A DNA stretch of 64,000 bases from Chitinophagaceae bacterium (lineage in GTDB: Bacteria; Bacteroidota; Bacteroidia; Chitinophagales; Chitinophagaceae), in NCBI GenBank assembly GCA_019752045.1, contig JAIEMP010000010.1:62001-126000 (forward strand), written 5' to 3'. Made by a program: the position numbers and the translations under genes. Shown here in pieces: positions 16,089 through 48,217 of the stretch; within the stretch, counting starts at the first letter, position 1, and the number at the start of each line of letters is the position of its first letter. Below the pieces are notes generated by a model, which was not told the origin of the DNA, made no database searches, and worked only from the letters and a program-made list of their open reading frames with translations.

Positions 16089-17609
16089 TTAGTAAAAGTG
16101 AAGGATCATCAACCCCGGATTAATTTCTGTTGTTTGTGATGCTTTTTTTGCAAGCTGCCCTCCCTGAAATAATTCTTTCTCAATTGGAGTGTTGTAATAA
16201 AAAAAGTAGTATCGGATTTTTTGCTGCTCTATTTCCTGCAACAGTTCGTTGGCAGTATAAACAGGTTTGGTAAAGGTATAAAATGGATTGCCGGATAAAT
16301 AGGCCATTACCATACACTCACCCTCCTTTGCATTAGATGTAAATGATCCTTTGATGGATTGTTGCCGGATAGTTGCTGTTGTTTGATAGAGTTGTTTGTT
16401 TACATGCAGGTTATCTTTTAAAAGATTAACCGGTTCAAGTAGAAAGCTTCCAAAAAAAATGAGTTGAAGAACCCATTGCTGCCATCGTAAAAACGAAAAT
16501 GCATCGAATAGTTTTTGCAGCAGCATACTGCCGGCTATTAAAAAAAGGAAGGTTAAACTCCATAAAAACCTTGTTTCGATATGCAGCAGGAGGTAGCCTG
16601 CAGATAAAGCCGCACTTGTCAATAACAGAAAAAACCAGAAACGTTTTTTTTCTTTGAACTGAAAAACAACAGACAAAAATAAAATAACAGCGCTGAAAAA
16701 AGAGATGGAATGCAAACTCGTAAACCACTGTTGCAGATTAAAAAGTACAATTCTTAATTGATGTAAGAGGATGGAAAGAGAAGATGCCTCACGGAAATTG
16801 AGCTGTTCAATTTTCCACGGGTCTTCCCAAATGGAAGAAGAACCCGGGTAAGGTGGTGCAGCCAACAAAGGGCCCGATACAACTCGGTACTTCATATCCC
16901 AGTTTCCGTAATTATTTTTTCCATGGGCAATCATCCATTCACCATACTTCCAGTGCAGTGCATAGATCCAAGGAAATGATACCAGCAAAAACACAGCAAC
17001 ACCTGCAATGATGCAATAGATTTTTTTAGCAGCATTTGGATTGCAGAAAAAATGAAGCAGGATAAAGTAGAGAAGAAAGAATGGAAAGGCATACGACTTG
17101 GCAAAATATGACAAAGCGCCCAAGGCACCTGCAACCATGTTCAGTGGAATGCTGTTGTAAAATTCTTTGAGGTGAACAAGGTTAAACAGCAGCAACAGAA
17201 TAAAAACAAGAAGCATATCTGCTGCCAGTTCATAAAATGAATAGTGCAATAAAATAATAAAAGACGTAAAAAGAATGGCCGACTTATAAAAATCAGTAAG
17301 TGTAAATTTTTGCAGCAGCCTGTGTAAAGCAAACAAACATCCAATGGCAATAAGTCCATTTGAATATCTGAATGCATCTTCAGGAAGTATACCCAGCTTA
17401 ATAAACGGAATCGTTATCCAGGAGTGGAGTGGAGACCAGTAACCATTTATTGCCAGTGAAAAATGACCCGCTGCATATTGTTTGGCCACGGCTGCATAGC
17501 CAACACCATCTACATCAAAAACATATTTGTAAAAAGGGAAACAACCGACAAATAAAACGCAAAAGCCAGCCAATGCAATTGAAAGCCTGTTATCAGTAAT
17601 CCGGTTCAT
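16089..17609 (-). CDS. GT-C type membrane glycosyltransferase (ArnT/PMT-like)
   Basis: 506 aa with about 10-12 hydrophobic helices. The first outside loop carries YVFDVDGVGYAAVAKQYAAG, an acidic motif position typical of GT-C glycosyltransferases that use polyprenyl-phosphate sugars. The C-terminal third is a soluble-looking segment (YLSGNPFYTFTKPVYTANELLQ). It probably glycosylates a lipid or protein at the outer face of the inner membrane; the acceptor is unknown. Its start overlaps the end of the BtuF-like gene by 17 nt, so the two are one transcription unit. Confidence 0.75.
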   Translation of the reverse strand: MNRITDNRLSIALAGFCVLFVGCFPFYKYVFDVDGVGYAAVAKQYAAGHFSLAINGYWSPLHSWITIPFIKLGILPEDAFRYSNGLIAIGCLFALHRLLQKFTLTDFYKSAILFTSFIILLHYSFYELAADMLLVFILLLLFNLVHLKEFYNSIPLNMVAGALGALSYFAKSYAFPFFLLYFILLHFFCNPNAAKKIYCIIAGVAVFLLVSFPWIYALHWKYGEWMIAHGKNNYGNWDMKYRVVSGPLLAAPPYPGSSSIWEDPWKIEQLNFREASSLSILLHQLRIVLFNLQQWFTSLHSISFFSAVILFLSVVFQFKEKKRFWFFLLLTSAALSAGYLLLHIETRFLWSLTFLFLIAGSMLLQKLFDAFSFLRWQQWVLQLIFFGSFLLEPVNLLKDNLHVNKQLYQTTATIRQQSIKGSFTSNAKEGECMVMAYLSGNPFYTFTKPVYTANELLQEIEQQKIRYYFFYYNTPIEKELFQGGQLAKKASQTTEINPGLMILHFY

Positions 17610-18378
17610 GATTTAAAAATAAGCTTTCTCTCAGTTTCCTGAAATATTTTGGACTGTGCATTAACCGGCTTCCGTACCAGCTGAACATTTCGCCATCAAC
17701 AATTTTACAGGTGGGGAATGGTGCGGTTGTAAGCTGCATCCATTCTTTTTTAAGTTCGTCAATCTGTTTTTCTTTAAACGGAAATGGTTCTGATGAAAGC
17801 AGAATCACTTCCACATTCGTTTCAATTAAATCTTTTACAGTAACAGGTGGGTATCTTTTTTGGGAGTGAAAAACATTGCTGAAACCGGCATATTGCATCA
17901 TGTTATCAATAAATGTATCTCCGCCGGCTGCCATATAAGGTGATTTCCAAATGAGGTAAGCTGTTTCGTAAACAACAGTGCCGGTAGTTAATGAAGCAAA
18001 TTCTGTGCGGATAGTTTCAATCAATTGGTTTCCTTTCGCATGGGTATCTGTTAAACGGGCAATCTCTTTGATCATGTGTAATGCATCTTGCAGCGTGCTG
18101 ATATCACTGCAGTAAACCGGACAAAATTGCTCAATGGCTTCAATTTGCTCTTTTACGTTTTCTTCTTTATTCGCCAATACGATTGTGGGTTGCAGTGATT
18201 TGATGAGTTCAATCTTTAATTGCTTGGTTCCGCCAACTCTGGTTTTGGTTTTAAACCAATGGGCAGGGTGAACGCAAAACTTTGTTATACCAATCACTTC
18301 TGTTTGCAGACCGAGATCATGTAATAATTCAGTTTGAGAAGGAACAACAGAGACTATGCGTAAGGAGGTAGTGGTCAT
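17593..18378 (-). CDS. BtuF/FecB-like helical-backbone metal receptor without signal peptide
   Basis: 261 aa. Motifs RIVSVVPSQTELLHDLGLQTEVIGITKFCVHP, VGGTKQLKIELIKSLQPTIVLANKEEN and GGDTFIDNMMQYAGFSNVF match class III periplasmic binding proteins for cobalamin or iron-siderophore (Peripla_BP_2). The protein starts directly at the domain with no signal peptide or lipobox, so it seems cytoplasmic; such stand-alone forms are of unclear role. No ABC permease or ATPase is next to it. A 12 bp hairpin ends 6 nt before its ATG. Confidence 0.8.
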   Translation of the reverse strand: MTTTSLRIVSVVPSQTELLHDLGLQTEVIGITKFCVHPAHWFKTKTRVGGTKQLKIELIKSLQPTIVLANKEENVKEQIEAIEQFCPVYCSDISTLQDALHMIKEIARLTDTHAKGNQLIETIRTEFASLTTGTVVYETAYLIWKSPYMAAGGDTFIDNMMQYAGFSNVFHSQKRYPPVTVKDLIETNVEVILLSSEPFPFKEKQIDELKKEWMQLTTAPFPTCKIVDGEMFSWYGSRLMHSPKYFRKLRESLFLNHEPDY

Positions 18379-18384
18379 AAAAGA

Positions 18385-18414
18385 AATTTGCCTGTCTTTT
18401 CAGACAGGCAAATT
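18385..18414 (-). promoter_or_regulatory. Terminator-like hairpin in the leader of the BtuF-like gene
   Basis: Perfect 12 bp stem (18385-18396 with 18403-18414) with a 6 nt loop. On the minus strand it is followed by TCTTTT and then the ATG at 18376-18378. A 22 aa ORF (18400-18468, starting MNSYQRKPSNTK) has its TGA in the loop. It could be an intrinsic terminator for transcription from upstream, or an attenuator opened by translation of the small ORF. Confidence 0.5.
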
Positions 18415-18527
18415 AAAAAATTCAGCGGTTCCTTTGGTGTTTGATGGTTTTCTTTGGTACGAATTCATTTTCTAGGATTTTGGAACCGGATTTTTCTTTC
18501 TTTCAGATTATCTCCTTTGCAGGCCGA

Positions 18528-19010
18528 TAAAAAGAAAAAAAGATCTGGATTTCAAAGGATATGAAACTTGGATTTCTGGTTTTTAATAGGATCCAGATCT
18601 TTTTTTAAAGCCTTTTTTTGGTCTCTTGGTTTCCGTTACAGATGATTCTGATTCGGTTGGCTTTTTTTTGGTTTTTCAGGATGTTAGGATTCGGGTTCTT
18701 CAGTTGGTTAGGACATTAGGATTTTTTCTTAGGCTCTTCTGTTGGATTTGGATTTACGGTCTTTCATTCATCGGACATTTGGATTTTTCTTAGGTTCTTC
18801 TGTTGGATTTGGATTTTAGCGTTTTTCATTAGTCAGGACGTTGGATTTTTCAGACGGTTTGGTTCTCTTTTAGGTTTATTGATTAAAAGTATTTTAAACA
18901 AACGGAAGATGATTGATAATGGATTTTATTTTTTGGTTTTTTAATGGATTTGAATAGTTCATCTAAGTGTTTTTCTAAAATCAGCACGTGTTTTTGTTTC
19001 AATCAACTTC
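18528..19010 (-). ncRNA. Putative ~480 nt non-coding RNA (or long leader) with tandem repeats
   Basis: A strong minus-strand promoter (19016-19046) and a strong intrinsic terminator (18535-18606) bracket this stretch. No ORF above 22 codons fits in it. The transcript strand is rich in A and C and poor in G, with little local pairing. It holds imperfect tandem copies of a 62-63 nt unit (18711-18772, 18773-18835, partial 18836-18857 and a half copy from 18679), each with AATCCAAATCC and GAAGARCCTAAG motifs. Tiny ORFs at 18894-18962 and 18764-18829 are not in the same repeat frame, so coding is not conserved between copies. Alternatives: a long 5' leader of the BtuF-like gene, or a decayed Lys/Pro-rich coding tail. 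Confidence 0.5.
18535..18606 (-). terminator. Bidirectional intrinsic terminator ending the putative ncRNA
   Basis: Perfect 16 bp arms AAAAAAAGATCTGGAT (18535-18550) and ATCCAGATCTTTTTTT (18591-18606), spacer 40 nt. On either strand the arm ends in a T run. Confidence 0.72.
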
Positions 19011-19015
19011 CGGTA

Positions 19016-19046
19016 CAAAAGTATGTTGAGCTGCTACACCGGGCAA
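19016..19046 (-). promoter_or_regulatory. Bacteroidetes-type promoter for the putative ncRNA
   Basis: On the minus strand, TTG (plus 19044-19046), a 20 nt spacer, then TACTTTTG (plus 19016-19023), an exact TAnnTTTG -7 box. It is the only box in this window where I found both elements with near-consensus spacing. Expected transcription start near 19008-19011. Confidence 0.65.
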
Positions 19047-19200
19047 GAGCAGTATTTCTCTTTTTTAAATACTCGGTATTTACTTCGGTACTCGTAGATC
19101 TACGTATAACTGTTTCGGAGTCTTACTTATCATTGCCAGATTTCCCTCAGTAAATTATCTTTCAAACTTTATAAAGTTGTTTACAATAAAGTATGAAGCA

Positions 19201-19248: not shown

Positions 19249-20616
19249 TTATTTGGTGAGTGACTGAATAATATCATACTTGGTAACGATGTGCAGGTTA
19301 CCTGCATCATCTTTACTTAGTACTGCACCATTTTCTTTTGTAATAAATGTACTCAAACGCTCAATGGGTGTATCAAACGGTACAACAGGTAAAGCCGGCT
19401 CCATCACCGCTTCAACACTTGCATGTTTTATTTCAGGATTCGAAAAAACTTTTGCAAACAATCCGTTTTCTGAAATAGAACCAACAGGTCCATTGCCATT
19501 TACAACAGGAATCTGTTCTATATCATATTTCTTCATCAGCTCAACTGCTTCTGCAACTGTATGCGTGGGTTCAATACTGATTAAGCGGTTGTGTGATCTG
19601 GATGATACAATATCTTTAAACGTTTTTACTTCCATAAAACCACGTTCCATCATCCATTGATCATTGTATATTTTACCTACATACCTGCTTCCATGATCAT
19701 GAAAAATACAAACCACCAGATCATCTTTTTTTAAACGGTCTTTTAATTGAAGCAATCCCTGAAAACAACTGCCTGCACTGTAACCGCAAAACAAACCTTC
19801 TTCTTTTGCAAGTTTACGTGCCATGATGGCTCCGTCTTTATCAGTCACCTGTTCAAAATGATCTATTACGCTCATGTCGTAATTCTTCGGCACAAAATCT
19901 TCTCCAAATCCTTCACTGATGTAGGGGTGCACTTCATTCATATCAACTTCTCCGGTACGGAAATATTTTGTTAGCAAGGAGCCGTATACATCAATGGCCC
20001 ATATTTGAATATTTGGATTCTTTTCTTTTAAATACTGGGCTGTACCTGTTACAGTACCTCCTGTTCCTGCTGTACAAACAAGATGGGTGATTTTCCCATC
20101 GGTCTGTTCCCAAATTTCGGGGCCTGTACTTTCATAATGCGCCAAACGATTGGCCAGGTTATCGTACTGGTTCATGTGTAAAGAGTTCGGCACCTCTTTG
20201 GCTAGTCTTGCAGCTACACTGTAATAACTTTTCGGATCATCGGGCAAAACATTGGTAGGGCATACAATCACTTCTGCACCTACCGCTTTTAAGATATCTG
20301 CTTTCTCTTTGGATTGCTTATCAGTAGTAACAAAAATACATTTGTACCCTTTTACAACTGCAGCAAGTGCAAGACCCATCCCGGTGTTACCACTGGTACC
20401 TTCAATAATAGTTCCTCCCGGTTTCAGTTTACCTTCTTTCTCTGCAACCTCCACCATTTTCAGTGCCATCCTGTCTTTAATGGAGTTGCCGGGATTGAAA
20501 TAATCAACCTTTGCCACAACATCGCAGGGAAAATTTTTTGCTACTTTATTCAGGCGGATCATTGGAGTATTCCCAATTGTTTCCAGAATATTATTTTTAA
20601 TGTTCATAATGTTCAA
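19249..20616 (-). CDS. Cystathionine beta-synthase (PLP domain plus two CBS domains)
   Basis: 455 aa. The PLP-dependent fold has the Schiff-base lysine in NPGNSIKDRMA (K47), the EGTSGNTGMGLA substrate loop and the GTGGTVTGTAQYLKEKNP phosphate-binding loop. The C-terminal part (from about residue 340) holds two CBS motifs (AVELMKKYDIEQIPVV; AVMEPALPVVPFDTPIERL), as in cystathionine beta-synthases. It condenses serine (or O-acetylserine) with homocysteine. Start may be ATG at 20616 or 20607. A cysteine synthase activity is possible, but the CBS pair favours this call. Confidence 0.88.
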   Translation of the reverse strand: MNIMNIKNNILETIGNTPMIRLNKVAKNFPCDVVAKVDYFNPGNSIKDRMALKMVEVAEKEGKLKPGGTIIEGTSGNTGMGLALAAVVKGYKCIFVTTDKQSKEKADILKAVGAEVIVCPTNVLPDDPKSYYSVAARLAKEVPNSLHMNQYDNLANRLAHYESTGPEIWEQTDGKITHLVCTAGTGGTVTGTAQYLKEKNPNIQIWAIDVYGSLLTKYFRTGEVDMNEVHPYISEGFGEDFVPKNYDMSVIDHFEQVTDKDGAIMARKLAKEEGLFCGYSAGSCFQGLLQLKDRLKKDDLVVCIFHDHGSRYVGKIYNDQWMMERGFMEVKTFKDIVSSRSHNRLISIEPTHTVAEAVELMKKYDIEQIPVVNGNGPVGSISENGLFAKVFSNPEIKHASVEAVMEPALPVVPFDTPIERLSTFITKENGAVLSKDDAGNLHIVTKYDIIQSLTK

Positions 20617-46281: not shown

Positions 46282-46305
46282 GGAAAGGTGAGTAGTGAAT
46301 AGTCA

Positions 46306-46356
46306 GTGGTGAGCGAAGTCGAGTGGTGAGCGAAGTCGAGTGGTGAGCGAAGTCGA
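46306..46356. repeat. 17 bp tandem repeat, three exact copies
   Basis: GTGGTGAGCGAAGTCGA at 46306-46322, 46323-46339 and 46340-46356. A related hairpin GAACATTGAGCGTAGTCGAAATGTTC-type follows at about 46368-46393. The unit core is the reverse complement of motifs inserted in thrC. Confidence 0.85.
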
Positions 46357-47886: not shown

Positions 47887-47926
47887 GGTTGTGATGACTC
47901 ACACTTTTCTTAAAAAATTATTTGGC

Positions 47927-48217
47927 GCAGAGAACAGGAGATAAAGAGGTCAACGCAGAGAATCTCTGCGCAAACTCTGCTTCTCATTTTTCTGTGCCAA
48001 GCTTCCACAGAATTTTACTCTCTTTAATTTTTACGCTGAGAACAAGAGGTAAGGAGATAAACGCAGAGAATCTCTGCGCTAACTCTGCTTCTCCTTTCTC
48101 TGCGCCAAGCTTCCACAGAATTTTACTCTCTTTAATTTTTATGCTGAGAACAAGAGGTAAGGAGATAAACGCAGAGAATCTCTGCGCTAACTCTGCTTCT
48201 CCTTTCTCTGCGCCGAA
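47927..48217. repeat. 108 bp tandem repeat, about 2.7 copies
   Basis: The inner palindrome CGCAGAGAATCTCTGCG recurs at 47954, 48062 and 48170 with a period of exactly 108 bp. Copies 2 and 3 are nearly identical (one base seen different, ACGCTGAG vs ATGCTGAG); copy 1 is more diverged. Because 108 is a multiple of 3, long ORFs stay open on both strands, but I read this as repeat rather than gene. It fills most of the ~400 bp gap between glmM and the cysteine desulfurase. Confidence 0.88.

Follow-up and report, generated by a model that had tools for sequence, protein, structure and literature searches.

Does the interval between a cbs-like and a btuF-like gene in a Chitinophagaceae genome encode an RNA, and if so, what might that RNA do? 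A sequence-only reading of this DNA had proposed, for the minus strand, a new non-coding RNA (ncRNA) bounded by a promoter and an intrinsic terminator, rich in A and C, poor in G, carrying tandem repeats and largely unstructured. It took the repeats as a hint of a protein bound at many points along the RNA, or of a Rho/rut-like role. We followed up this proposal in the window (the whole 64,000-nt stretch of DNA that was analysed) and in related genomes. The features of the locus are collected in Table 1.

Table 1. Positions of the predicted ncRNA, its parts and its neighbours in the window.
Feature	Position	Strand	Basis or remark
Predicted ncRNA, ~475 nt	18535..19011	(-)	Start near 19011, end near 18535; promoter and terminator
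-10 element TACTTTTG	19023-19016	(-)	Read from sequence
Upstream TTG	19046-19044	(-)	20 nt before the -10 element; sequence
Second conserved promoter dyad AAAAAAGAGAAATACTGCTCTTG	19044..19066	(-)	Family form AAAATnRGGCAnTnnTGCTCTTG
NarL-like 7-2-7 site TAC-N10-GTA (TACGAGTACCGAAGTA)	19081..19096	(-)	Window sequence
Closing stem, 5' arm GGAAGTTGATTGA	18999..19011	(-)	Alignment and sequence
Closing stem, 3' arm TCAATCATCTTCC	18904..18916	(-)	One T-T mismatch in the window
A/C-rich loop inside the closing stem	18917..18998	(-)	Window sequence; family loops
A/C-rich, G-poor tail, words AATCCAA / GAAGAACC / ATCC..GAAAAACC	18607..18903	(-)	Window, genus, family
62-nt tandem repeat, 2.3 copies	18710..18851	(-)	Score 198
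Intrinsic terminator, arms 18591-18606 and 18535-18550, T-run	18535..18606	(-)	
cbs-like gene (PALP + CBS domain), upstream neighbour	19249..20616	(-)	
btuF-like Peripla_BP_2 protein gene, downstream neighbour	17593..18378	(-)	

Architecture of the window locus

Both boundaries proposed for the unit were recovered. The TTG and the -10 element of a minus-strand promoter stand at the spacing claimed, and the terminator arms are complementary at 16/16 positions, lie 40 nt apart and come with a T-run. The composition of the body (18607-19011) was also as described (A 0.47, C 0.21, G 0.12, T 0.20), with the words ATCC and AAACC occurring 11 and five times, respectively. Two further claims stood in part. 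The tandem repeat is present, its score being the second highest among the 53 tandem-repeat rows of the 64-kb window, but the number of repeat units is not fixed and differs among six copies of the locus from Lacibacter species. Predicted fold stability of the 481-nt window RNA was close to that of shuffled sequences (z -0.72), in keeping with an unstructured RNA, yet a long-range stem encloses its first ~82 nt.

A 13-bp hairpin with T-rich sequence behind it (18385-18414, minus strand) immediately precedes the btuF-like gene, which starts at 18378, and could act as a second terminator or an attenuator of that gene; a similar hairpin precedes the btuF-like gene in locus L131. By eye, words like those of the RNA run on beyond its terminator towards btuF (18400-18530, minus strand), so that read-through transcripts would bear additional words. 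Elsewhere in the window, a 108-nt repeat (47926-48214, 2.7 copies, 93% matches) and a 17-nt repeat (46301-46356, 3.4 copies, 97% matches) were observed.

Distribution and conserved parts of the family

A search of 294 genomes of the family gave DNA homologs 72-79% identical in five genomes of the same genus and, in other genera, weak homologs of the 5' end. By eye, the homologs share a common start, GAAGTTGAYTGA, on which a search pattern was built and run on named genome records. This pattern matched at least 124 sites in at least 117 stretches. By record title, 114 of the 117 listed stretches belong to Bacteroidota, 76 of these to Chitinophagaceae by name; the genera among the listed matches include Lacibacter, Niastella, Flavisolibacter, Flavihumibacter, Puia and Ginsengibacter, and six bins carry a Sphingobacteriales label. 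After dereplication and selection, the counts given below refer to 112 of the 124 sites for the promoter (or 122 with full upstream sequence), 107 sequences for words, 99 of 108 loops and 60 random sequences for folding.

A covariance model, R1, was built on a 40-row alignment comprising 39 of 63 dereplicated 5' domains and the window sequence. In a strict-filter search, R1 was positive in 89/244 Chitinophagaceae genomes (38/101 genera), with 1-11 copies each. At loci L061, L115, L139 and L148 the RNA stands in tandem, two or three copies in a row, and paralogs of one genome have words in common, as judged by eye. Samples of the order and the phylum, which contain Chitinophagaceae too, gave 16/198 and 3/247 positive genomes, all Chitinophagaceae; R1 matched nothing outside this family in either sample. 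The genome sets used for the separate searches of the family overlap with one another. In the window's own genome, R1 matched positions 18896-19023 (E 8.2e-13; the 40 rows behind the model include the window sequence), and neither R1 nor a DNA search, whose other matches were short (E >= 0.083), found a second copy there.

The promoter, the closing stem and the word content recur at 124 sites among the matches listed. A strict script placed a terminator at 61/120 listed sites, the median distance from RNA start to terminator end being 272 nt; being strict, it misses some, and with a range of up to 900 nt a few of the 61 are possibly foreign to the RNA. A 13-bp terminator core (AAAAGATCTGGAT and its complement) is identical in six aligned Lacibacter sequences, which had been delimited by means of the 3' arm; in the 5' arm the outermost positions differ. 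As the sequence-only reading had stated, no riboswitch explains the locus: Rfam gave no match at gathering score in the window and none in 20 loci fetched for this RNA, the best relaxed-threshold match lying far below the cut-off, and on this ground a riboswitch or other known RNA was ruled out. No description of this RNA was found in the titles and abstract openings of the best matches in the open-licence PMC literature. The family is thus new to Rfam and to the open-licence literature searched and, judged from sequence, is almost certainly a real ncRNA family. Its homologs lend strong support to the ncRNA proposed by the sequence-only reading, to which the multicopy nature of the family, the NarL-like promoter site and the link to a response regulator were not visible. 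A mobile or phage element was rejected; the pattern matched three viral contigs, none of which then showed an A/C-rich body, and these matches look like chance. Locus L018 (1380-1640, genome G139) carries the word AATCCAAATCCAACAG and has no R1 match, and A/C-rich word RNAs may be more widespread than the modelled family.

The closing stem, which the window folds with a single mismatch, is conserved in most of the members found. Its 3' arm, left free in the search pattern, was present at 114/124 listed sites, a median of ~101 nt from the 5' arm (115 matches to the regular expression, of which that at L050, at a distance of 558 nt, belongs to the following copy; two of the nine sites with no match are cut off at contig ends). 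A T-rich tract (at least 7 T in 14 nt) follows the 3' arm in 101/115 matches. In the 40-row alignment, in which the 5' arm was fixed by the search pattern, 479/480 cells of the first 12 pairs were standard pairs, the sole exception being the T-T of the window, and pair changes were mainly among A-U, G-C and G-U. At the 13th pair both sides change in five rows and pairing is broken in three; the 14th is broken in six. A small alternative hairpin, in which the latter half of the 5' arm pairs with bases close by, was predicted in 0.78 of 97 sequences versus 0.44 of shuffled ones, a moderate excess, and was not seen in the window. As it overlaps the long stem, the two forms would be mutually exclusive. 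The probability of being unpaired was 0.56 for the whole RNA versus 0.46 in same-locus windows (60 random sequences), and 0.72 versus 0.44 at RNA nt 20-39 (one random same-locus window for each of the 60). A probable role of the closing stem is to shield the loop and to present it.

Within this largely single-stranded RNA, particular words were far more frequent than in dinucleotide shuffles of the 107 sequences: GAAAAACC (68 observed versus 3.8), ACCGTCC (51 versus 1.9) and AATCCAA (137 versus 20.0), the excess of the last being partly due to a conserved site adjoining the 3' arm. UCC/ACC words in the body are commonly 4-12 nt apart, and the spacing between nearest CC doublets in these sequences was enriched over shuffles at 4-14 nt. 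C was the best conserved base in the six Lacibacter copies (conserved columns: C 32/67, A 51/131, T 20/54, G 8/34).

Promoter elements and associated response regulators

The family promoter, derived from the 112 dereplicated sites, consists of TTTACgA-N7-aGTAAATac followed by AAAATnggGCAattnTGCTCTTG and the -10 element. The latter is conserved, the search pattern itself having demanded TANNTTTG, and the TTG, absent from the requirements of the pattern, stands at the place equivalent to that in the window in 85/112 sites. The second promoter dyad has its best centre at -30.5 (112 sites), the window carrying a variant. The most distinctive element, TAC-N10-GTA, occurred in 69/112 promoters versus 4.2 in shuffles, at one fixed position in 61/112; each of nine other spacings (6-9 and 11-15) was found in 4-15 promoters (~4 in shuffles). 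The full element is missing from 46/122 promoters. Its geometry equals that of an engineered NarL 7-2-7 site, TACCCCTAAAGGGGTA, in the available text of PMC4549865.

Clustering of neighbouring genes revealed response regulators of the NarL/FixJ type that are encoded divergently from the RNA; all four that were scanned have Response_reg and GerE domains. Two of these recur, RR-A and RR-B, which are ~50% identical and lie in one cluster with more regulators and likely kinases (the kinases recognised by eye). RR-A is divergent from the RNA in at least 37 genomes (gap 252-334 nt), RR-B in at least 11. A divergent regulator within 400 nt (text filter) accompanied 13 promoters, 12 of which have TAC-N10-GTA; the site was also present in 64/109 of the others, which indicates that it belongs with the RNA and not merely with the regulator gene. 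A cbs-like gene is the nearest same-strand upstream ORF at 54/124 listed sites.

An RR-A match (E <= 1e-65) was found in 100/244 genomes, namely 89/89 RNA-positive and 11/155 RNA-negative ones. Identity of that match was at least 61% in 87 of the 89 RNA-positive genomes; in the remaining two (G048 and G081) it was only 49%, i.e. RR-B-like. Clade largely confounds this co-occurrence: in a RecA tree for 80 genomes, labelled from the strict-filter search, resolution was poor, row G021 was badly placed, and only three independent pairs lay on starred branches, which was not significant. In the window's own genome, RR-A lies on contig 9, far from the RNA.

In the 11 genomes with RR-A and no RNA by R1, a relaxed search gave no match below E 0.18. 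Upstream of RR-A, two of them (G145 and G068) have the same promoter element followed by words and terminator-like hairpins, with no closing stem; the same reading of a third (G098) found no such element. From the first two a signature, AAANNRGGCANTNNTGCTCTT, was drawn up post hoc. Its exact form was present in 3/11 RR-A-positive, R1-negative genomes (G145, G068 twice and G181) versus 0/58 RR-A-negative genomes (P = 0.003), leaving 8/11 in which it was not found; restricted to the eight genomes unread beforehand, the comparison was 1/8 (G181) versus 0/58 (P = 0.12). Allowing one mismatch gave 47 matches in 32/70 genomes of both groups (13 for the reversed control), and inspection of seven such places, including one in the window's genome, found no such RNA behind any. 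In the 259 nt following the four exact places, ATCC occurred 8, 3, 2 and 4 times and AAACC 2, 1, 1 and 2 times. C exceeds G in the A-rich places of G145 and G181; the excess is less clear in the two places of G068, which are short. As the stem-less candidate RNAs of these three genomes share the promoter element and the words of the family, the closing stem is perhaps dispensable; if the candidates are true relatives, the constant parts would be the promoter and the words.

On these sequence data, control of the RNA by RR-A/RR-B is somewhat more probable than not. It is rated no higher because the signature test is only partly independent and two genomes have an RR-B-like match only.

Some other neighbours of the RNA and its regulators were also observed. 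The cluster of NarL/FixJ-type regulators and likely kinases lies at L243:7580-13713, with equivalents in L245-L252, in RNA-bearing Chitinophagaceae. A family of small proteins (117-134 aa, MxxELLxK..GEEISHELGA..GRNIIExILAQPGC; L126:1547-1927, L087:4369-4752, L250:10288-10689 and L243:14170-14520) is encoded beside the RNA in some genera and inside the regulator cluster in others; two scanned members had no Pfam match, and the AlphaFold prediction was poor (mean pLDDT 55.5). In a single case, L137, a gene for an RRM-like RNA-binding protein (by motif) lies 313 nt past the RNA start and encodes a candidate ligand.

Possible functions and relation to known systems

Word content fits a protein ligand, Rho or an antisense seed alike. 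In the reading we prefer, the NarL/FixJ-type regulator RR-A, possibly with its neighbour RR-B, would bind TAC-N10-GTA and set the amount of RNA. Through its repeated words the RNA would bind, many times over, a protein other than CsrA that recognises single-stranded RNA, and would thereby release the mRNA targets of that protein, as CsrB and RsmYZ do for CsrA. CsrA itself was ruled out as the ligand: GGA is depleted (87 versus 120.0, sd 6.5, in dinucleotide shuffles of the 107 sequences), and CsrA (PF02599) was found in 0/244 Chitinophagaceae genomes by a search that was positive in 3/14 control genomes. We place a stand-alone, trans-acting, CsrB/Rsm-like RNA that sequesters a protein under RR-A/RR-B just short of an even chance, and protein sequestration as the main function, argued by analogy with GacA-RsmX/Y/Z, is a possibility of the same order. 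More tentative is the wider proposal of an independently arisen Csr/Rsm-like post-transcriptional circuit of Bacteroidota. In it, paired NarL/FixJ-type regulators would drive a multicopy family of long, G-poor RNAs, and the UCC/ACC words of these would titrate either a global protein, yet to be recognised, that binds single-stranded RNA, or Rho itself, all without CsrA.

The strongest competitor is a base-pairing sRNA family in which C-rich seeds recur, similar to FopS/GibS, a multicopy family of Bacteroidaceae. The RNA is likewise multicopy and dispersed, with conserved, mostly single-stranded words such as ACCGTCCAG, and FopS provides a precedent for a multicopy family in this phylum (available text of PMC11697453). 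However, the number and order of words drift between close relatives and each RNA carries many repeats, a pattern expected of multivalent binding more than of a seed; we consider base pairing unlikely, though still a serious contender.

Rather less probable is that the ligand is Rho, the RNA then serving as a natural rut-like decoy or trap of Bacteroidota Rho whose amount would set Rho-dependent termination. Rho prefers C-rich, G-poor single strands such as rut sites, and the loops resemble these in composition: they average 93 nt, are mostly unpaired and have C over G (C/G 2.33, 99 of 108 loops), and CC doublets are most often 6-11 nt apart. This match to rut is compositional only, C makes up merely 24% of the loops, and the enrichment is of specific words, beyond YC doublets. 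Furthermore, among the best matches listed from the open-licence PMC literature, none conspicuously concerned an RNA that serves in nature as a decoy of Rho.

A cis-acting 5' leader of the downstream gene, in the window the btuF-like gene, would account for the words and the hairpin between the terminator and that gene, and a btuF-like gene is the first downstream ORF at 33/124 listed sites (36/124 counting the second ORF). Against such a leader as a general explanation, at 41/110 sites the first ORF beyond the RNA (simple ORF caller) is encoded on the other strand, same-strand downstream genes vary and, in arrays L115 and L139, a terminator stands behind each copy; this makes it very improbable. 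A decayed gene, or a chance assembly of promoter and terminator, can be set aside despite single-frame stop-free stretches of 39-70 codons in the six Lacibacter copies, given the conservation of promoter, stem and words across the family and a share of only 17/124 pairwise gap runs in multiples of three. By the latter measure a protein-coding gene was also ruled out; the single conserved reading frame that the sequence-only reading had named as evidence against an ncRNA was not found.

Should protein sequestration be the function, a multicopy RNA with a specific response regulator and a clear repeated word offers a bait for the missing RNA-binding protein, and the regulator link offers a testable two-component input in the CsrA-free Chitinophagaceae.

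Of the systems compared, type III toxin-antitoxin RNAs consist of tandem repeats followed by a terminator, beside a toxin gene. The present RNA shares the order of repeats and terminator, whereas no recurring toxin-like neighbour stood out when its neighbour clusters were inspected by eye. Ligands of Rho are similar in having C over G, close C doublets and mostly unpaired sequence; what sets the present RNA apart is a promoter of its own, the conservation of specific words and, at many sites, an intrinsic terminator. FopS/GibS form a multicopy sRNA family in the same phylum, and the RRM protein RbpB of Bacteroides binds mainly to single-stranded parts (available text of PMC11697453), but that family belongs to Bacteroidaceae and pairs through a seed; it is set apart from R1 by description, not by sequence.

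The closest likeness is to CsrB/CsrC and RsmX/Y/Z, which also are multicopy, repeat an unpaired motif and are linked to a response regulator, with a palindromic site upstream. UvrY controls CsrB, and GacA is of the NarL/FixJ type. RsmX/Y/Z are controlled by GacA, have a palindromic upstream site and sequester RsmA through multiple unpaired GGA motifs (available text of PMC2375449). In those RNAs the motif is GGA, whereas here it is an A/C-rich UCC/ACC word, accompanied by a long-range closing stem, in genomes with no CsrA. The kind of RNA, a regulator-linked, multivalent regulatory RNA, is therefore already known; its word, its host phylum and the absence of CsrA are new.
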